Shown one piece after another: positions 30,363 to 56,887 of a DNA stretch of 64,000 nucleotides. Origin of the DNA: Blastocatellia bacterium. GTDB lineage: Bacteria; Acidobacteriota; Blastocatellia; Pyrinomonadales; Pyrinomonadaceae. The stretch lies in contig JAEUQK010000017.1 in NCBI GenBank assembly GCA_016789265.1, forward strand, positions 1 to 64,000, in the 5' to 3' direction. The position numbers were made by a program, and so were the translations under genes. Below the pieces are notes generated by a model, which saw only the letters and a program-made list of their open reading frames with translations, ran no database searches and was not told where the DNA came from. Positions within the stretch are counted from its first letter, which is position 1, and every line of letters begins with the position of its first letter.

Positions 30363-33300
30363 TCAGAAGTTGAACTTTCCTGAAAACTGAATACGCCTTG
30401 CAGAACTCGTTACGCTGTCACGAATTCTACCAAAAACAGTTGAGTTGAAAGTTGCTGTCGGGATACCGAACGACGCAGTATTGGTCAAGTTCTGAGCATC
30501 GACACGGAGGTCGAAGCTAAGCGTTTCGGTAAATCGGAACTTCTTTGAGAGCGACACATCAGTCTGGAACCTGCGGGGACCGATGAAGTAGTTTCTTCGG
30601 GTATTCCCCAGTTCGCCCGGACCTGGCTGGGAGAACAGCGCTTGTGCCTGTTCGCTGAACCAGTAATTGGTTCCGTTTCGCTCGACCAGTGAGCCTAGGT
30701 CACGCGGGCAATTATTACAGTTCGCAGTTGCCTGAGTAACATTGCTTATTGTGTAAAGGCCCGAATAAACGGTGAACGGACGTCCCGAGGACCAATTATA
30801 TCGGCCTGCAAGCTGCCATCCTCCGATGATATAGTCAAGGGCCGACGGCATATCCGATCCAAACTTTTTACCCTTTCCTACCGGCACTTCCCAGACGTAT
30901 GTTGCATTCAGGACGTGGCGGCGGTCGAAATCTGACCATGCGTAATTAAGGTTCTTGTCCCTAAGGTCGAATGGCGTGCTCGATGCCGATTGGTTGTTGT
31001 CACGGGACACGGTCGTAAACACCGGGTCATACGAACGGGTATCCTTTGAAATTGACCATGTATAACCGACCGAATAACCAAACCCTCCGGTGAGCCGCCG
31101 TTTTAGATTGACCTCAAGTCCGCTGTAACGCGAATAGTCCGTGCTGTCCAGGACATTCATTGCTCCAAGAAACTGCGGGAATCTCTGGAAGAAGTACGGA
31201 TTACTTAGGCTTCGGCTGATGAGCTGCTGAGACGTCGACGTACACAGCCCAGAGGAGACCTGGGCGGAGGTGCAAACAAGTCCTGAGACTGTACGCGCTG
31301 CGGTAGCAACACTGCCTCCGGTGTTTGTAGTCGCAAGAGTTGCTGCGACCGTCCCGTTTGCACGAAACGCAGCTGTACCTGCCGCATTGGCGATGTCACC
31401 GGTAAACAAAAGATTCGTTAAACATTCGTTCGTCGAACCTGCACGGATCTTGTTGAACGTTGTCAGGAAATTATCCGCACAGCGTGAATCCTTTGCAAAA
31501 ATATCCACCTGATTGGCGTCGTATCCGCCGAAAAGGTGAGTTCCACGTTTACCGATGTAATTGACTTCAAGAACGCTGTCCCAGAACACGTCGTGCTGAA
31601 TTCCCGCAAACCATGAATGGACTTCCGGATAACGCGCATCGGGGTCGACCAGAGTTATCGACGAAGTTGAGAATGCGGGCGGCGTCCTCAATTGCGCCGG
31701 CGTTGAGGTCGGGAAGAGATTTGGTAAACCGTTCCTCAGCAACAAGTTCTGCTGCGCTATCCCCGAGGCAGATGCGTTAAATACGTTGCCCGGAGTTCCC
31801 TGCCAGATGCTGTTGGTAAATACTTGTGTTGCAAAACGGTCGTACGATAGACGGTAATTTGCTCGGATCGACGTCTTTCCCTTGCTGAACGGATCCCATG
31901 CGAAACCGATTGACGGCCCCCAGTTATCTGTGTCATCAGGAAACATCTTTTTCTCGACCCAGGTGATCGCATTTGTCGGTGCGGCCCCGGCGGTGAACAG
32001 ACGGTCGGGTGCAAGAATGGGAAGATCCTTTGAACTAGGACTTAGCTTAAGTTCATATCGTAATCCCAGATCAACCACAAAATTGGGGAACATTCTCCAC
32101 GTATCCTGAAAGTAGAAGTCGTATTCAGGATAATAGGCACGGAAGTTCCACCGAGTTCCAGCGGGCGCCCACGAGGTTGGGTTTTCAGGGCTAACAATAA
32201 ATCCCTGGCTGAAGCTGCCGATTCGCCCGATCAAATTGTTGATCAGGGAACGAAGATTTGTTAGATCGTTCGCGTTGATCGATGTGCTGCCCGAGGCCGG
32301 AAGCCCGAAACCCGTAAAGTCACTCGAACCCGCGCCAAAACCGACCGTTCCTTCGATCGCACCGCCAGCGCTTGAACGATCATCGAGTACACGTCCAAGG
32401 CGAATGTTCACGCCCGCTTTGAATACGTGCGGCGAATAATCAAAGGTCATGTTATCCACGATCTGGAAAGTCCGAGCAGCGCGAGCATTTCCGAGCTGAT
32501 TGCCATATGCATCGGCAACTGTGTTCAGGACGAAGGGCACATCATTTCGAACCTCAGGATTAAAGAAGGAGAATCGGAAGCGGCTAAGGCCGAAGATCGC
32601 CTCGTTTGTAAATTTTGCGTTTGGCGACCACCGATGGTTGAATGCAAAGTTCTTAGGACGTCGTCCGGTATCAACAAGATTCGGGAATCCCGGAAACGCC
32701 TGCAATCCCCCGTTGACACTGTCGCCGATGGTGTTTTGCTCTCCTTCAGCGTACCGGACATAGAATTTGTGCTGATCGTTCAGGTTATAGTCAAACCGCA
32801 TTACGAGATCCCACTGCTTTTCGAGCTGGGGCGCGTTAAAATTGAATCTAGCCGTATTGAGGCCATCACCCGCCGAGAAGTCGTTCGGAAGCGGATAACT
32901 GTTTAGGATCCCAGTTACCAGAGGATCAAAAGTGATCGGAGACCCCGTGTTTGCATTGTAATAACGTATACATTGAGTAGTGATCGACCCGCTGCAGTCC
33001 GGGTATCGCGCAGTGCCGTCAGCATTCACGGACGCCGTTGCCGTACCGGCCGGTGCATTCTGCTGCCCGACTACATAACGGAAGATCCCGGAACGGGCCG
33101 ATTGGGTGTAAACAGTACGAGTCGTCAATCTGGTTTCCGTGGCGAATAATCGTTGGTAGTTTATAAAGAAAAATGCTTTGTCCTTTAAGGGCCTAAACTT
33201 ACCTCCGTCGCCGAATCCAAATGTCGGGATCGGCCCCCCGGCACTGAAACCGTAAATGTGCTGAACGAATTGCGGCCTCCTAACTCCGAGCAGATTACTC

Positions 33301-34109
33301 TCGAACTGATTAGCGTTGAAACGAGGCGTCTGGTAATACTCAAAGATGTTCCCCGAGTAACGATTAGTACCGGATTTGGTAACAAGAGTGACCTGAGCAC
33401 CGCTGTTTCGTCCGAGTTCGGCGGTTGCGTTGCTGGTTACGACCTGAAACTCCTGGATAGAGTCCGGATTAGGACGGAGCGGAGTGAAATTCGAACCGCC
33501 GGCAGTCGTGTCATTGATGTCGATACCGTCCAACGTGAAGTTAAATGCACGGTCTCGAGAACCGTTAACATGAATGCCTCCGCCTGTGTTCGATCCGACC
33601 ACGACTCCCGACTGATAGTTCAGAAGATCAAGAGGATTTCGGCCACGAAGCCCGACGATAGGCAAACTCTGCAAGGTCTGCTGTTCGATGGTTGAGCCCA
33701 CATTTCCCGACGTCGACGTCTGAACGGTCTCAGCAGCACTCTCCACGTTCACGACCGCCGAAACGTCTCCCACTTCTAAAGCAAGATTTACAGTTGACGG
33801 CTGGTTGATCAAGGCAACGTTATTCGTCGAGACGATCTTCTTAAAACCTTGTTTCTCGACGGTGATCGTGTAAGTGCCGGGAGGGATCAGATCGAAGGCA
33901 TAAACACCGTTATCACTCGTAGTCGTGATAAGCGTGGAGTTGGTGCCGGGATTGATCAGCGTAACCGTCGCTCCGGGAACTATGGCTCCGTTATTATCGG
34001 TAACAGTACCGGTAATGCGTGAGGTTGTGCCCTGACCAAATGCTGACCCGAACAACAAAGCAGTCAACAACAACGTCGGAAGTGCGAGAAAAAGCCTTTT
34101 GATGCTCAT
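30363..34109 (-). CDS. TonB-dependent receptor, Oar-like, with carboxypeptidase-regulatory domain
   Basis: 1248 aa. Signal peptide at residues 1-25 (LFLALPTLLLTALLFGSAFG), then a CarboxypepD_reg beta-sandwich at about 28-120 (ITGTVTDNNGAIVPGATVTL ... PPGTYTITVEKQGF). The plug domain is at about 125-245 (GLRGRNPLDLLNYQSGVVVG, IHVNGSRDRAFNFTLDGIDI). A long beta barrel ends in RRIQFSGKFNF with a terminal Phe, as in outer-membrane proteins. These receptors are expanded in Acidobacteriota and are thought to import large glycans, peptides or chelates. An excellent ribosome-binding site (TGGAGGA) precedes the ATG. Monocistronic between terminators. The ligand cannot be inferred. Confidence 0.93.
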   Translation of the reverse strand: MSIKRLFLALPTLLLTALLFGSAFGQGTTSRITGTVTDNNGAIVPGATVTLINPGTNSTLITTTSDNGVYAFDLIPPGTYTITVEKQGFKKIVSTNNVALINQPSTVNLALEVGDVSAVVNVESAAETVQTSTSGNVGSTIEQQTLQSLPIVGLRGRNPLDLLNYQSGVVVGSNTGGGIHVNGSRDRAFNFTLDGIDINDTTAGGSNFTPLRPNPDSIQEFQVVTSNATAELGRNSGAQVTLVTKSGTNRYSGNIFEYYQTPRFNANQFESNLLGVRRPQFVQHIYGFSAGGPIPTFGFGDGGKFRPLKDKAFFFINYQRLFATETRLTTRTVYTQSARSGIFRYVVGQQNAPAGTATASVNADGTARYPDCSGSITTQCIRYYNANTGSPITFDPLVTGILNSYPLPNDFSAGDGLNTARFNFNAPQLEKQWDLVMRFDYNLNDQHKFYVRYAEGEQNTIGDSVNGGLQAFPGFPNLVDTGRRPKNFAFNHRWSPNAKFTNEAIFGLSRFRFSFFNPEVRNDVPFVLNTVADAYGNQLGNARAARTFQIVDNMTFDYSPHVFKAGVNIRLGRVLDDRSSAGGAIEGTVGFGAGSSDFTGFGLPASGSTSINANDLTNLRSLINNLIGRIGSFSQGFIVSPENPTSWAPAGTRWNFRAYYPEYDFYFQDTWRMFPNFVVDLGLRYELKLSPSSKDLPILAPDRLFTAGAAPTNAITWVEKKMFPDDTDNWGPSIGFAWDPFSKGKTSIRANYRLSYDRFATQVFTNSIWQGTPGNVFNASASGIAQQNLLLRNGLPNLFPTSTPAQLRTPPAFSTSSITLVDPDARYPEVHSWFAGIQHDVFWDSVLEVNYIGKRGTHLFGGYDANQVDIFAKDSRCADNFLTTFNKIRAGSTNECLTNLLFTGDIANAAGTAAFRANGTVAATLATTNTGGSVATAARTVSGLVCTSAQVSSGLCTSTSQQLISRSLSNPYFFQRFPQFLGAMNVLDSTDYSRYSGLEVNLKRRLTGGFGYSVGYTWSISKDTRSYDPVFTTVSRDNNQSASSTPFDLRDKNLNYAWSDFDRRHVLNATYVWEVPVGKGKKFGSDMPSALDYIIGGWQLAGRYNWSSGRPFTVYSGLYTISNVTQATANCNNCPRDLGSLVERNGTNYWFSEQAQALFSQPGPGELGNTRRNYFIGPRRFQTDVSLSKKFRFTETLSFDLRVDAQNLTNTASFGIPTATFNSTVFGRIRDSVTSSARRIQFSGKFNF

Positions 34110-34352: not shown

Positions 34353-37300
34353 CTAGAAAAGTAATCGAAATCCGAACCGGACGGCACGCGGAGATTGATA
34401 AAGCTGCGGCATCTTGTATCGCGCGTCCGGCCTATCGGGTGAAGCCCCTATATGGGTCAGGATCGTCTGAAGCAATGCGCCGGTGGTATAGCCGTTTGCG
34501 TAAAGCACAGGACGCTGTCCGGCAGTTGCCGCCGGGAAGAGCGCAGCATCGTTTGGCCTGCCCGCCGTAGTATTCATCGTCGGGTAAACCCCAGTCACTG
34601 TATCCTGGTCCCACAAATTGGTGAAGTTGATATCACCGGCAATGGTGAACCGGTTGTCTCTTCCGAATCTGTACCGATGAGTGATATTCAGATCGGTCTG
34701 AGAGTACGTCGGCGAACGGCCCAGATCACCACGATGATAAAAGATCTGCGGAGTAACGCTCGACTGTCCGTAGATCGATGTTGTCATCGGTGTTCCGGAA
34801 GTGATCGTCTGGAACGCAGAAAATTCCGTCGAATTCGTCTTGCTTCCCATCCAGTCGAAAATATAGGCACCGTAGAAATTGAACACGTGCGGTCGATCAG
34901 TCGGCAACGGTCCATTATCCGGCTGTCCTTCAGCAGTAAAGCCAATGAACGGAAGGTCAAACGCACGGCTTACTCCCGGAGCGAGGCGGCCGTCAACCAA
35001 ATGAGGCTCATCTGAACTCGAAAGTCCCGTGTAGTTTCCAAACAATCGGCTGTAGGTGTAGTTAACGTTGAAATAGAAATTCTTCGACAAACGCTTGTCG
35101 AGAACGAATTCCAAACCGTCGTATCGGCGTTGTGGACTCGCAACGTTGATGTATCCGAACTGGCGGAGCGATTCAGCATGCAGGCCGCGGCCCGGATTTC
35201 CGATGATGTACGCTTCGCTTCCGGCGCTGTTAACGAATCCGGCATCTTCAACGGCTTCATCGACATTCTTAAATGTGTAGCGAACTCTGAACACATAATC
35301 ACGGCTCAGCTGCCTTTCACCGCCGACAGTGAATTCGGTCTGTTGAAACGGTTTCAGGTTCGGATCGACAGCACCGAAACCGGTGTACAAACCGGCACCC
35401 GGTTCATTTGCGTTGACGCGAAGATTTCGTTGGCATCGGCTCCTGACACCGGGAGCGATCGTTCCGGTGGACGGGCAAACGCTTGGGCCTGAGAAGTTAC
35501 CCACGATAGTGGTAATGTTGAAGCTTGAGACTGTGTCACCCGGGAAAATCTCAAAATAATCTTCAAGGAAAACGTCGCCGCCAAATAGACCACGCGGTAA
35601 TGCGAATTTCACGCGGTCAAAGAAACGGCCGTAGCTGGCAAATACTTTCGTTTTGCCATCGCCAAACACGTCAAGCGCGAATCCCAACCTCGGAGCGATC
35701 TTATCACCCCATCCAAAGTTGATGGCGCTCGGGTACTGGTTAAACGACGGAAGATCTTCTTTCTCAATTCGAACACCCAGATTCAGCGTTAGACGACCGA
35801 ACATCTGGTACTTGTCCTGAATGAAAATGCCCTGGCTCAGATTTGAACCGCTTCCGTTGGTGCCTTGACGCCGGAACGAACCCGATCCGATCGCACCAGC
35901 CGTATCAGTGACTCCGGGTTGAGTGCTCGAGATCGGTGTTCCAACAAAAAATCGAAGCTGTCCTATCGCATTGTTGCCGGACTGCACGTCATTGAAGATC
36001 GAGTATCTTTGATATCCGCCTTTAATCTCGTGCTTGCCTCCAAGATTGAATAAATAGGTGCCGGCAAATTCGTAAGACGTGCGAACAGAAATATCCTTGA
36101 CAGTGATCGAGTTAGCACCGGTTGTCGAGCATGGAAACGCCGGTGTGTTGCTGCTGCAGCTGGAGACCTGCGGAAAGAATGTCGGCACAAAATAATTGCC
36201 ATTCTTTTCATTCAGGAACCCCCGACTGTAGCGTCCATCGATAACAAGGTTGCTTGTAGGAGTATAGCTTCCGGAAAACGAGACCAGATTCGAGGTCTGC
36301 CGACCGCCCTGTTTTGGACGAAATTCACTCTCGGGCAGGATCCCGATCGGCGGACCAAAATTGGCCGTTGGGATGCTCGGATTGAACACGTAGGAGGAAG
36401 AAGTAACATTCGAGAACGAGGAACCCGGAAGGCTTCCTTCATCGATGACCGGGTCCCACAAGAAGGAACCGGAGAGTCTCAAGCTCTCGAACGGATTGGC
36501 ATCTAAGCGACCAAACGCATACTCATAAGTTCTCTTTCTTCGGTAAGTTTGATTTGCCACCGAAGTACGAGTGCTGGCCGGAAGATTGGTCAAGTACTGC
36601 GTGTTGACTTCGGTAACGAAATACTGCGGAGAATAACTGGTAAAAAACCAAAGCCTGTCTTTGATTATCCGACCTCCGACATTTGCTGTTGGAAAAACAT
36701 TGGTACCTTGGGTCTTCGGCGGGTTAAAGTACTCAACAGCCTGAACGAAATTATTCTGTCCCGTGGATCCGGTCGTGAATCTCGTTAACAATGGACGCGG
36801 AGTCCCGCTGAACTTCGGTGTGTCGAACTGAATTCCGACCTCACCGTGGAAATCATTGCTTCCTCCTCGGGTCACAACGCTAACCACGCCTCCGGTGGCA
36901 CCGCCGTATTCTGCGTTGAAACCGCTAGACTTGACCTGCACTTCCTGAACTAACTGAGTCGGAATATTGTAGGTATCATTCAACGTCCCGGTCCGATAGT
37001 TCGTCACCTCCTGACCATCGATAACAAAAACGCTTTCGGCACCCGAAGCCCCGTCCACCGAGAAACCACCCGTCCGCGATTCAGGACGAGTTCCGGGAAC
37101 AGTTTTCAACAAGCTTGTAAAGCCAGTTCCTTTGGGGAGCAGCTCTATCTTCTGGGCACTTAGCGTCGATTGGATCGCATTGTTACCTGTATCAACGGGC
37201 GGGGCATCAGAAGCGGTAACGTCAACGGTATTGACGGCGGTACCAGGATTTACGGTTATGTTCAGTTGGGTGGTGGCGCCTACGGAAACCTGAACGTTTT

Positions 37301-37619
37301 CGTATCGCGATTCACCAAACCCGCTAGATGCAGACGTAACAACCAGATAAGTTCCCGGCGGCACCTGCAGAAGGCGAAAAAAGCCCTCATTATTAGACGT
37401 CACCGTACGCCTGAATCCGGAGCCTAGGCCGGTTGTTGTAGTGCCGGACACGGCATCCCGAGCACTTGTTACAGTTACGGAAACGTTTGGCACCAAGCTA
37501 CCAGCCGAATCCTTGATCGTGCCTTCGAGACTTCCGGTTGTCTCCTGACCATAAGCGGACAGACTAAAAAAGATAAGAACAGTCGCCACAAGCAGACCTG
37601 TTCTACAGAACTACATCAT
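34353..37619 (-). pseudogene. TonB-dependent receptor interrupted by an in-frame TAG at codon 3
   Basis: The body is an intact Oar-like receptor: carboxypeptidase-regulatory domain (SLEGTIKDSAGSLVPNVSVT), plug (GGFSVDGASGAESVFVIDGQ) and a barrel ending PRAVRFGFRLLF. The start is anomalous. A strong GGAGGA site (complement of 37627-37632) sits 7 bp before ATG ATG (37614-37619), but the next codon is TAG (37611-37613), and only then does the signal peptide continue (FCRTGLLVATVLIFFSLSAY, then GQ). The open frame without a stop can begin only at GTG 37589, which gives 1078 aa with a signal peptide lacking its positively charged start. Either a recent nonsense mutation, a sequencing error or poor translation from GTG. 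Scored as a probable pseudogene or switched-off gene with an otherwise intact frame. Confidence 0.7.
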
Positions 37620-37626
37620 TTCGATA

Positions 37627-37632
37627 TCCTCC
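37627..37632 (-). promoter_or_regulatory. Ribosome-binding site pointing to the interrupted ATG of the second TonB receptor
   Basis: GGAGGA on the minus strand, 7 bp before the ATGATG at 37614-37619. It decides that the native start was that ATG and not the downstream GTG at 37589. Confidence 0.8.
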
Positions 37633-37990
37633 GAGGATTTTGAATTTGACCCGATCGATACAGTAGGTTCCTCTATTGGAACTATTACTGACATTGATAA
37701 TTAATTGAAAAACTAGTCGATTGATTTATGAGGCAAATTCTGTGCCTCCGGTCGGTCGATTTTTAAGATCGGCATTGATTCTTGAATTCAAGTTATTGAT
37801 GACAAGAGCTTGCAGACACTAACTAATTGATTCTATTGCGTTTAGCGGCCGCGTAAATACGGGCGTCAATAAGTGAACCGATTTTCAAGCAGATCTGCAA
37901 CGTCAATGAGGCCCTGGTTCCGGAAATGACCAATGTCGTAGAGTAGTCAGCAAAGACCAAAAGAATGGATTTTATTCATTTTGTAGGAAC
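37633..37990. other. Intergenic region upstream of the second TonB receptor
   Basis: About 360 bp between the ribosome-binding site and the end of the YCF48-like gene. It is AT-rich around 37680-37740, where the receptor promoter would be expected, but I see no convincing -35/-10 pair. No terminator-quality hairpin follows the YCF48-like gene, and there is no open frame I can support. Confidence 0.5.
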
Positions 37991-38974
37991 TTAGCGTTCG
38001 TATCGCAGGACGATTCCTTTGGCGCCAATAGCCCATCCATACTTCTTAAACATGAACAGTCCGTAAAGATGGTTTGTCGTGCCGCTTTCCTGTTTTATCC
38101 AGGTTCGGCCTTTGTCAGACGAACGAAGGATAGAGCCGCGGTAGCCGACGATCCAGCCGTTCTTGTCGTCCGCAAAATCGACCCTCATGAAGGTCTCGGT
38201 GAAATTAGTCAACACTCGGGTCCATGTGGCCCCGCCATTTTCGGTTCGAAGGATCGTTCCCTTTTCGCCTACTGCATATCCTTCGTTGTCATCGCGAAAA
38301 TCGACATTGTAGAGTGCGTTTGTGGTTCCGGAGGACTGTTTTACCCAAGTACGCCCGCTGTCCGTCGACGCGAGGATCACTCCGTCGTCACCGACGATCC
38401 AGGCGTGCGAACTACCGTTGAAGTCCAAGTGGAACAACTCGGTTTTCGTCGGCATTTGAATACGAGTCCAATTTTCTCCTCCATCGTCGGTTCGCATCAC
38501 CAGCGAGTCAACTACCACATCTTCGTTCTTTACTTTTCGCAAAAGAGAACCGATGGCGATGCCACGTTTTTTGTCGGCAAATCGAATGCTCAGGAACTCG
38601 GGTGTAAGGTTCTTGAATTCTCCTGATCTATAAATATGCGTTTCATTCCAAGTTCGGCCCGCGTCGTTTGTGATAAACATTTTCCGGCCTGCAACAAGAT
38701 AACCATTATTATCGTTCCGGAAATAGATCTCGTTGATGTCCTCAGCAACGTTTAGCTTATAAGGCGTCCAGGTCTTTCCGCCGTTTGCGGTGGAAGCCAA
38801 GAAACCATTGTCTCCGGCAACCCAACCCTGCTCCGCCGATGTGAAATAAACCGCCACCAAATCACCGGAACCCGGCGAGGGCAGCTTAAACCAACTAGTC
38901 TGGGAACGCGATATCGAAACAGAAACAAATATCAGAAACAACGAAGCAAACACGTAAAAGATCTTTGGTGCCAT
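37991..38974 (-). CDS. Exported YCF48/HCF136-like beta-propeller protein
   Basis: 327 aa. Signal peptide at residues 1-24 (FYVFASLFLIFVSVSISRSQ). The rest is made of about six ~45-residue repeats with the pattern 'f.d...G...G..G.il.S.DgG.tW......t': DNGFLASTANGGKTWT, DDGVILASTDSGRTWV, EKGTILRTENGGATWT and YRGSILRSSDKGRTWI are clear copies, separated by 'lY.v.F.d...gy.vG'. This is the sialidase-like propeller of the photosystem II assembly factor family, widely used in non-phototrophs as an exported scaffold of unknown role. Alone on its transcript by position. Confidence 0.88.
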   Translation of the reverse strand: MAPKIFYVFASLFLIFVSVSISRSQTSWFKLPSPGSGDLVAVYFTSAEQGWVAGDNGFLASTANGGKTWTPYKLNVAEDINEIYFRNDNNGYLVAGRKMFITNDAGRTWNETHIYRSGEFKNLTPEFLSIRFADKKRGIAIGSLLRKVKNEDVVVDSLVMRTDDGGENWTRIQMPTKTELFHLDFNGSSHAWIVGDDGVILASTDSGRTWVKQSSGTTNALYNVDFRDDNEGYAVGEKGTILRTENGGATWTRVLTNFTETFMRVDFADDKNGWIVGYRGSILRSSDKGRTWIKQESGTTNHLYGLFMFKKYGWAIGAKGIVLRYER

Positions 38975-39076: not shown

Positions 39077-41335
39077 TTACTTCGTAACACGATAAACGCG
39101 GCCCTTTAGAACAACCACTACTTCCTCACCAAGAGAGAAATATTGTCCGAGTTCCGGTTCTCTGGCGACCAAAGCAAAGTACTCGTCGCTGCCGAATTTC
39201 ACGACTGTCTCTGGGAGTTTCGATTCGTTCCTGAGATCCGAGTCGACCCATACGTTCGATTGATTGAAGAAATTCTTAGTGCCCACGAACTGATTGATGG
39301 ACGAATTATCGACTAGTATCCGCTCGTTCCTATCCTTCTTTTTGTCTTCTGCGATCGAATAATTTTCCTTCATCGCGTTTTGCTGAACGCTCATCTGAAC
39401 CGCTCCAGCGCCGCTGTCAGCCCGCACCTTTGCCGGAGCAGACCGCATCAAACTTATCTGCCGTTCAGAATCGCGCGGTGCATTTGCAAGAGAACCGTCA
39501 GTGGCTAGATATGACGTGTAGGGCGTGACAATGCCGTAACGCGTGCCGAGATCGGTCACCTCATCGCGAAGCTCTTTCGTCTCGCCATTTCTGCGGATCT
39601 CTTCTATCAACCAACCGACTCGACGGCTTGCCCAGAGTCGCGGGAGAAACTCGTTATCGTTTTCGCGTTCGGGAAAATCGAGACCGCTGAAGCTGAAACT
39701 TCGAGCTTCCTTACCCGTCTTCCCGTTCAACGCAATAGTGATATTCTGCAGGTCAGAAGCATTCTTGTACCGGCCGATCATGGCTATCTGCATACCCTTG
39801 AAAAGATCGGTGATCTTTCTCGGGTAAACAAAATCTGCCTGAAGCCCGCCGAGATCGAGTTCTATATCAGAAAGCACTGGTGAGCTTACTCTTGCAAAGA
39901 AGTTTGAAACCTTCACCTCCAGATCTTCTTTAGGCTGCACATAGTCCGAGATACCTGAATTTTCTGTACCGATCCTATCGAGCAATGCGGTGTTTACGTC
40001 ATAACCAAAACCGAACGGGAATATTCGAACATCGATGTCTCTGTTTTTCGCAGTCTTTAAGTTGGCAACGATCTTCTCGGCATCAGTAACCCCAACGGTG
40101 GGATTACCGTCGGTCATAAAAACCAACATCTTTGGACGATCGCTTCTCGCGAACTGTTTGAGCGACGCTATCAACGAATCGTTGATATTTGTCCCGCCTG
40201 TTGGACGCAGATTATTAACGAATTCTTCACCTTTTCGCTTCCCGCTCGCATCAGCGGCGATAAGTCCGCGTTCCATAAGGTGTTCTTCGCCGGCAAAGTT
40301 TATGATATTGAATCGGTCGCCGTCCCTCAGCGTCCGAACGCCGAATAGCAGGGCATTCCGAGCCTTTTCCATCTTCCCTTCATCGGCCATTGAGCCGCTT
40401 GTGTCGAGAACGAAAACTATGTCTTTGTTCACCAATTCACGCTCTGAGACGTCATCGCGCGGACTCATAAGAAGCAGAAAGTATCCGTCCTTGCCGGGTT
40501 CGCGGTGAGTAAGCAGGGTCATCCCGAAATCGTCGTTCGAGAGGCCGTAAAATAGCTGAAGATCCGAGTCGTTGTCGGTCGTTTCGAATGAGACGATCGC
40601 GTTTCGCTCACCTTTGTTCGAAACGTCTATCTTGTGGGATGGCGAGTAGATGTTTCTCAAAGCTTGTTTGCCAACTATCTCTACTCGGCCCGATACAGAA
40701 CCGAATTTCTGCGGCGGCAATGCGGTTCGAACCCCTTCGTTTTCTATCCATGGCTGCCGCCAAAGATTACGGCCCGTTCCCAGCGGATATTTGTACGCCA
40801 CCGTGCCGGATTCGGCCTTCAACACTTGGGAGTAGGTGAGCTCGAGTTTCTTATCCGAATTTCCCGGAATTGGGAATATTGAAGCCTGAAAGAGGTCCTT
40901 TCCGGCATATTCAAGCAGTCCAGGATCGCGCTGACGCCTAACTATCTCATCGTATATCCTTCGTGCTTCTTCCCGAGTCCGAACTTCCCCGACAAGCTTC
41001 TTGCCGTTTTCCCATATCGAGAATTCAACGATCGAAGCCGTTTCGGGGATCGGGAAGAAATAGGTGCCCTCGAGGGTGTAAGGGGTATCGTTTCGAAAAA
41101 CCTGCTCGACATGAGTGGTCGCGACCTGTCCCTCGATCTTCGTATCCAGTTTGATCGATTTGACCGGCAATACATTTGGCAGCGGGATCGGACGCGGGAT
41201 AGGAGGACGCGGCGGCCTGCATGGCCGAACGTCACATACGATGGGAACAATAACACCTTGGCCAAATGTTTGAGACAATGACCCAAAGGCGATAAGGGCC
41301 AGTAACGCGGTGAAACTAATATAGAACTTTCTCAT
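39077..41335 (-). CDS. Exported VIT/VWA-domain protein (inter-alpha-trypsin-inhibitor-like)
   Basis: 752 aa from the ATG at 41335 (MRKFYISFTALLALIAF), preceded by GGGAG; an in-frame extension to 41419 has no such site and would hide the signal peptide. A VIT domain covers about 55-185 (THVEQVFRNDTPYTLEGTYF, EARRIYDEIVRRQRDPGLLE). A von Willebrand A domain follows at about 305-480 with an intact MIDAS, DIVFVLDTSGSM, later RPTGGTNINDSL and VFMTDGNPTVG. A C-terminal region of ~250 residues ends in a short beta segment. Such bacterial proteins are thought to mediate metal-dependent adhesion or envelope complexes. No partner AAA ATPase is nearby. Confidence 0.9.
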   Translation of the reverse strand: MRKFYISFTALLALIAFGSLSQTFGQGVIVPIVCDVRPCRPPRPPIPRPIPLPNVLPVKSIKLDTKIEGQVATTHVEQVFRNDTPYTLEGTYFFPIPETASIVEFSIWENGKKLVGEVRTREEARRIYDEIVRRQRDPGLLEYAGKDLFQASIFPIPGNSDKKLELTYSQVLKAESGTVAYKYPLGTGRNLWRQPWIENEGVRTALPPQKFGSVSGRVEIVGKQALRNIYSPSHKIDVSNKGERNAIVSFETTDNDSDLQLFYGLSNDDFGMTLLTHREPGKDGYFLLLMSPRDDVSERELVNKDIVFVLDTSGSMADEGKMEKARNALLFGVRTLRDGDRFNIINFAGEEHLMERGLIAADASGKRKGEEFVNNLRPTGGTNINDSLIASLKQFARSDRPKMLVFMTDGNPTVGVTDAEKIVANLKTAKNRDIDVRIFPFGFGYDVNTALLDRIGTENSGISDYVQPKEDLEVKVSNFFARVSSPVLSDIELDLGGLQADFVYPRKITDLFKGMQIAMIGRYKNASDLQNITIALNGKTGKEARSFSFSGLDFPERENDNEFLPRLWASRRVGWLIEEIRRNGETKELRDEVTDLGTRYGIVTPYTSYLATDGSLANAPRDSERQISLMRSAPAKVRADSGAGAVQMSVQQNAMKENYSIAEDKKKDRNERILVDNSSINQFVGTKNFFNQSNVWVDSDLRNESKLPETVVKFGSDEYFALVAREPELGQYFSLGEEVVVVLKGRVYRVTK

Positions 41336-41443
41336 TTCATACTCCCAAGAATCGAAATCGGGGCGAGCGCAAGAATTCCTTACATTGTAAGGAACGAACC
41401 CGCAACAGGTTTCTTGCAATAGAAACTTGAGAATTTTGAGACT

Positions 41444-55452: not shown

Positions 55453-55782
55453 ATGCCCGCAACGATCAACAAGGTGGAATCGATCGATGAACTCGACGAA
55501 TTGTTCGAACGCTCGTTCGCGGAGCCCGTCGTAATTTTCAAACACAGCAACAGCTGCGGCATCAGTTCGCATGTTCTGGAGATGATCGCCGAATTTGACG
55601 GCCAGCTCAACGTCGTCGTCGTTCAGCAGAACCGTGACGTTTCCAACGAGATCGCCATACGCACCGGATATACTCACCAATCGCCTCAGATATTTGTATT
55701 GGTGGACAAGAAACCCGTTTATCACGCGACCCACTACGGCATCGATCCTGAGATAGTAAAACAAAAGGCACAAGAACAATGA
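55453..55782 (+). CDS. ytxJ: YtxJ-like monothiol bacilliredoxin
   Basis: 109 aa from ATG 55453. Thioredoxin-like fold: EPVVIFKHSNSCGISSHVLE carries the single active-site Cys in the SCGIS context of the YtxJ family (usually TCPIS). Later NVVVVQQNRDVSNEIAIRTG and the cis-Pro segment HQSPQIFVLVDKKPVYHATH follow. Bacillithiol-dependent de-thiolation is proposed for YtxJ in Firmicutes, so its presence hints that this organism uses bacillithiol or a similar thiol; bshA/B/C are not in the window. It overlaps the DUF971 gene by 4 bp. Confidence 0.85.
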   Translation: MPATINKVESIDELDELFERSFAEPVVIFKHSNSCGISSHVLEMIAEFDGQLNVVVVQQNRDVSNEIAIRTGYTHQSPQIFVLVDKKPVYHATHYGIDPEIVKQKAQEQ

Positions 55783-56066
55783 TCGAACCAGTTAAGATCA
55801 TCGAAGAAAACGACGCCGAGATCACGATCGTATGGTCGGACAATGTCGAGACGAACTATAACGCCCCGCAACTGCGACGTGCCTGTCCTTGCGCCGGATG
55901 TATCAACGAATGGACCGGAGAAAAGATGCTTGATCCGTCGTCGATCGTTGATGATCTTTCTTTCAAACACATCTCCATCGTCGGCCGTTACGCATTGAAC
56001 TTCCATTTCACCGACGGTCACGACACGGGCATATTCAGCTTCAAACTGCTGCGAGAACTTGCCTAG
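55779..56066 (+). CDS. DUF971-family protein
   Basis: 95 aa. IEPVKIIEENDAEITIVWSD, then the two-Cys segment LRRACPCAGCINEWTGEKML and a C-terminal 'GrYAl.f.f.DGHdtGIfsf..LR' stretch (GRYALNFHFTDGH). This is the DUF971 / gamma-butyrobetaine-hydroxylase N-terminal fold. In other bacteria it occurs next to Fe-S assembly genes or as a zinc-binding domain. The CPCAGC motif could bind zinc or iron. Overlaps ytxJ by 4 bp; cotranscribed. Confidence 0.9.
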   Translation: MIEPVKIIEENDAEITIVWSDNVETNYNAPQLRRACPCAGCINEWTGEKMLDPSSIVDDLSFKHISIVGRYALNFHFTDGHDTGIFSFKLLRELA

Positions 56067-56080
56067 CCTAATGTTGTACA

Positions 56081-56362
56081 ATGTTGAAGATGCAGGAAAG
56101 AGACATCTTTGACGAAATACAAGAGATCAAGAAGGCCAACTATTCGTGCCCGTTTTGCCGCGAACGTAATGACTACGACGTTCGCTGGATGAAACGGACC
56201 AAAAAGAAGAACGCGCCTCGCACGCTGAACGAGCACGACCGTGCCCGTTTTCAGAAATCCCGCGACTATATGGTCAGAATGGACGACCAGCTTATGTGCA
56301 AGAACATGCGTTGCCGCAAGAGGTTTGACATTCCATCATCGCAGTCTGTCGTGTTCATATAA
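56081..56362 (+). CDS. Small zinc-ribbon-like protein, unknown function
   Basis: 93 aa; ATG 56081 or the in-frame ATG 56090. Two cysteine pairs, SCPFCRERNDY (near residue 22) and CKNMRCRKRFD (near 74), are spaced like a zinc ribbon, separated by a very basic loop (KRTKKKNAPRTLNEHDRARF). The basic character suggests nucleic-acid or ribosome contact, but there is no family match I recognise. It follows DUF971 by 14 bp. Confidence 0.65.
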   Translation: MLKMQERDIFDEIQEIKKANYSCPFCRERNDYDVRWMKRTKKKNAPRTLNEHDRARFQKSRDYMVRMDDQLMCKNMRCRKRFDIPSSQSVVFI

Positions 56363-56431
56363 CGTGTGGAAGTAAGCGTGAATGCGTGCTATGCTTCACT
56401 CATAAGTAAACTGCAGCAAGGGGGAACGAAA

Positions 56432-56815
56432 GTGACAGGAAACAAGCTCGAATTCTACGAGAACGAGACCCCGATCGATGAATCGATGAAAGAATTCATC
56501 GATGAAGAGATCGCCCACGCCCCAAAGGCACCAAACGAACTGACCGAACGGCTGTTTGAACATCATTCGTCCTCACCCGCGGATTCCGGCGGCGATATCG
56601 ACGCAAGCTGGGAAGAGGTGAACAGTTCGGGTTCGGAAGCCGTTTTCGGCCATAACCCTACTCCCGACCAGTCCGACGTCGAAGAAAACGCTCACGCGAT
56701 GGGTATCGATTTTGAAGATAATGAACCGCTCGATTTCGTCAAGAAATTTGAACGGCGCGACCGCAACCGGTTTGAGCTCAATGAGAATTCCAAATCCGGC
56801 AAGGACATGATCTGA
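56432..56815 (+). CDS. Acidic soluble protein, resembles the DUF6335 type
   Basis: 127 aa if started at GTG 56432 (MTGNKLEFYENE), which has AGGGGG 9 bp upstream; the frame continues open to 56366 with no such site. Mostly acidic. The pattern GGDIDASWEEVNSSGSEAVF, then HNPTPDQSDVEENAHAMGID, and KKFERRDRNRFEL resembles, from memory, the 'gGD.dA.w........EaV.G..PTPDQ..Vd..g.a.Gi......l....k...RD..RwEl' layout of DUF6335 proteins known mainly from cyanobacteria. Function unknown; closed by the terminator at 56839. Confidence 0.6.
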   Translation: MTGNKLEFYENETPIDESMKEFIDEEIAHAPKAPNELTERLFEHHSSSPADSGGDIDASWEEVNSSGSEAVFGHNPTPDQSDVEENAHAMGIDFEDNEPLDFVKKFERRDRNRFELNENSKSGKDMI

Positions 56816-56838
56816 TATTCAATCAAGACCAAAAAGCG

Positions 56839-56865
56839 AAAAGGCCGACGCGAGATCGGCCTTTT
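56839..56865. terminator. Bidirectional terminator between convergent genes
   Basis: A 10-bp perfect stem, AAAAGGCCGA (56839-56848) and TCGGCCTTTT (56856-56865), 7-nt loop, with T-runs in both orientations. It serves the plus-strand small-gene run and the minus-strand TonB-type gene ending at 56888. Confidence 0.9.
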
Positions 56866-56887
56866 CCATTAGAAGCATGGGATGACG

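Follow-up and report, generated by a model that had tools for sequence, protein, structure and literature searches.

The 64,000-nucleotide stretch of DNA analysed here (the window) contains a TonB-receptor-like gene on the minus strand whose own start, carrying a strong Shine-Dalgarno (SD) sequence, runs directly into an in-frame amber stop. The probable origin is a single base change that recently turned the second or third codon of this vertically inherited receptor gene into a stop. The features concerned are the following.

37627..37632, minus strand: Shine-Dalgarno GGAGGA, from the sequence, with a predicted anti-SD pairing of −9.5 kcal/mol.
37614..37619, minus strand: tandem ATG ATG (37619-37617 and 37616-37614) at the start position of the orthologues, from sequence and orthologue comparison.
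37611..37613, minus strand: in-frame amber stop TAG, a sense codon in 8/8 orthologues, from sequence and orthologue comparison.
37548..37610, minus strand: coding region for the rest of the signal peptide, FCRTGLLVATVLIFFSLSAYG, followed by QETTG, from alignment with the signal peptides of the orthologues.
37587..37589, minus strand: GTG, the next usual in-frame start, 21 nt past the TAG, with a weak ribosome-binding site, from the ORF and SD pairing.
34353..37589, minus strand: open TonB-receptor-like gene with CarboxypepD_reg (PF13620), Plug (PF07715) and OMP_b-brl_4 (PF25183), from the ORF and Pfam domains.
37991..38974, minus strand: YCF48/BNR-repeat protein, the upstream neighbour, found upstream of the receptor in 8/8 orthologous loci.

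The minus strand from 37632 to 37611 reads GGAGGA, 7 nt and ATG ATG TAG, in frame with the downstream receptor gene (tcctcGGAGGAtatcgaaATGATGTAGttctgtagaacaggtctgcttGTGgcgact), as the original prediction described, and the strong start accordingly yields a two-codon product, ATG ATG followed by TAG. A start upstream of the TAG is ruled out, as the TAG itself lies in frame. Four further sites in the window have, by chance, an SD and ATG with a stop no more than five codons on, none of them with GGAGG; the pattern at the receptor gene exceeds chance, because it is the only site that combines GGAGG with an exact in-frame match to the SD and ATG of eight orthologues. An imperfect inverted repeat centred on the Shine-Dalgarno sequence spans 37620-37644 (minus strand, TTCAAAATCCTC G GAGGATATCGAA), with 12-nt arms that are 83% complementary and separated by 1 nt. 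Pairing of the arms might hide part of the ribosome-binding site; the whole region folds no better than shuffles.

Downstream of the stop, the core of the signal peptide is retained, as is its cleavage region (AYG-QETTG). The GTG at 37589 was predicted to be the remaining usual start, with a signal peptide lacking a basic N-terminus and with no ribosome-binding site of its own. The first two points hold, in that the product from the GTG, MATVLIFFSLSAYGQ, carries a signal peptide without a charged n-region, there being no Lys or Arg. The third is right only as to strength: an AGG does lie 7 nt upstream of the GTG, and its predicted SD pairing is weak, −3.2 kcal/mol versus −9.5 kcal/mol for the ATG. 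Because the stop falls directly after ATG ATG and the GTG start has no Lys/Arg n-region, the window gene does not encode a signal peptide with a basic n-region from an SD-ATG start of its own.

Eight distinct orthologues whose 5′ end could be read (L009, L010/L039, L012/L041, L013, L014, L038, L042 and L044; 64-76% identity) came from a search of 60 related genomes and a genome collection. All eight begin at an SD-ATG start with a Lys at codon 2 or 3, in the n-region, and neither TAG nor any other early stop is present at the start of any of them. Specifically, a sense codon stands at the position of the TAG in every orthologue, which supports the predicted single-base change; the substitution is inferred from relatives that are at most about 76% identical over the full protein. 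The proposed comparison with relatives thus shows that the TAG is not common to them and that a conserved downstream start preceded by a ribosome-binding site of its own is found in none of the eight, the GTG being used by 0/8. The SD pairing of the window gene is as strong as that of the orthologues (−6.5 to −9.3 kcal/mol for seven of them). Additionally, in a comparison set of 50 receptors, of which 19 are paralogues encoded in the same genome and 31 belong to relatives, an ATG start with Lys/Arg ahead of the hydrophobic core is found in 50/50 and an SD-like site in 49/50, leaving the window gene beside them as the sole exception to ATG plus basic n-region.

The YCF48-like gene lies upstream in 8/8 loci, and the window gene is therefore a vertical orthologue; in L041, a second receptor gene sits between the YCF48-like gene and the orthologue. 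In the window, a second receptor gene (30363-34109), of the same domain type but only distantly related, lies directly downstream on the same strand, a pair that is retained in L009, while in L041 the second receptor is upstream instead. A VIT/VWA-domain protein (39077-41419), scoring below the cut-off of TIGR03788 (the sortase-target family), is encoded upstream of the YCF48-like and receptor genes, an arrangement retained in L039, L042 and L044 and partly in L041 and L014. Its listed start, a TTG, probably lies too far upstream, and an internal ATG ahead of the signal peptide MRKFYISFTALLAL looks the better start. Elsewhere in the window, about 1.3 kb (55611-56887) is free of any ORF of at least 150 aa.

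The body of the receptor gene is intact. As predicted, the frame past the TAG runs uninterrupted to 34353, with 1078 codons counted from the GTG, and the protein has CarboxypepD_reg, Plug and OMP_b-brl_4 in this order, all above the Pfam gathering scores (47.8, 31.5 and 111.2 bits, respectively). In a tree of the orthologues, the window branch measures 0.146 amino acid substitutions per site, shorter than the 0.214 of its sister L039; codon positions 1+2 give 0.096 and 0.129, respectively. Third positions are near saturation, making terminal-branch dN/dS unreliable, and these branch data speak only against long relaxed selection. The window gene breaks 5/320 otherwise invariant columns, within the range of 1-13 among the orthologues. 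One mark of a pseudogene, a stop where the orthologues have a sense codon, is thus present against 8/8 orthologues; the other, further decay or relaxed constraint, is not found, branch length and invariant columns both being in the normal range, in agreement with the prediction of no decay in the rest of the gene. The damage is confined to the start codon region. Because the gene body is without decay or acceleration, the nonsense event is either recent or an error, and the intact frame might also reflect continued translation and selection of the gene.

An error would take the form of a wrong base, or a minority-strain base, picked during metagenome assembly, the organism itself having a sense codon, and the resulting sequence would be no different from that of a real change. 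The undamaged gene body and the uniqueness of the early stop to the window sequence fit such an origin, as does the nature of the material: those related genomes that were retrieved by name are assembled from metagenomes, and the window genome is a 42-contig assembly. However, neither the receptor gene nor its 19 paralogues contain other stops or frame breaks, giving no sign of a generally poor consensus. A second copy of the 5′ region as a strain variant was not found in the assembly with up to 3 mismatches allowed. We regard the artefact as a possible but clearly less probable origin than a real change, a weighing that follows general expectation.

The TAG might be decoded as sense by a suppressor tRNA, as pyrrolysine or by efficient readthrough, and the constrained reading frame downstream of the TAG is compatible with this. 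However, the suggested suppressor search returned no tRNA with a CTA anticodon among the 42 tRNA genes found (an incomplete list, without Cys or Ile tRNA), PylS was searched for and is absent, RF1 is present, and TAG is the ordinary stop of 12/42 genes in the window. Neither a cognate tRNA, within that incomplete list, nor the pyrrolysine machinery expected for a recoded amber codon was thus found, and we rate this as the least probable of the readings considered.

Two-codon minigenes are able to regulate a following gene, and in the txe minigene 15 nt separate the stop from the start that it regulates (PMC8708949). A functional ATG ATG TAG minigene could regulate the receptor by termination followed by reinitiation at the GTG, or by leader occupancy that protects the mRNA. 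The strong SD, the two-codon ORF and the short spacing resemble txe, and termination-reinitiation is established in bacteria (PMC6728339). Like the txe and EHEC LEE1 minigenes (PMC8708949), the window gene shows an SD, an ATG, one sense codon, a stop and a nearby second possible start; in contrast to them, it has a minigene that consists of its own damaged start, shares its reading frame and is absent from all relatives. Specifically, the minigene occurs in 0/8 orthologues, in which the same ATG is the receptor's own start, and the GTG has a weak SD and gives an n-region that, in lacking Lys/Arg, differs from those of 50/50 receptors. A minigene conserved ahead of a distinct start that ribosomes could use is thus not seen. 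Additionally, the leader region folds no better than shuffles (z 0.33). A search of the leader for known RNA elements found none. Such a regulatory minigene is improbable. More improbable still is a version in which the receptor's own start has become a minigene and a receptor made in small amounts or poorly exported, through reinitiation at the GTG, is favoured by selection; a single base would then act as a reversible dial on a surface receptor in natural populations. The "tolerated off-switch" of the original prediction gains no positive support.

Taken together, the window gene is most probably an ordinary allele of recent origin, with function lost or expression low (or an assembly base error), and not a new mechanism. 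With a recent nonsense change, ribosomes loaded by the strong SD would start at ATG ATG and terminate immediately at the TAG. Full-length receptor might still be made at a low level by reinitiation at the GTG 21 nt downstream, in which case it would carry a signal peptide without a basic n-region, or alternatively by rare near-cognate readthrough of the TAG. Because about twenty further receptors of the same kind are encoded in the genome, one of them 54-60% identical to the window gene, loss of the receptor is probably tolerable.

In-frame nonsense codons under purifying selection are reported to be widespread in bacteria, and other such codons to stem from sequencing error, pseudogenes or annotation artefacts (Belinky et al. 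2021, PMC7918605). As in the cases of that study, the TAG in the window interrupts an otherwise conserved reading frame; it differs in affecting the first codons of the gene and in occurring in a single genome, whereas that study guarded against errors by counting only stops present in at least two species. The window gene adds a further case, seen in one genome, of a bacterial gene that is intact apart from a nonsense codon. Its domains, length and cleavage region (GQETTG) are those of other Acidobacteriota CarboxypepD_reg / OMP_b-brl_4 receptors, among which the early stop is found in the window copy only. For annotation it is a warning, as an ORF caller begins the protein at GTG 37589 and thereby gives a false N-terminus. 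Surface receptors are targets of phages and bacteriocins in other bacteria, and a single-base off state could be selected; the TAG would therefore matter more if it were at intermediate frequency in natural populations.
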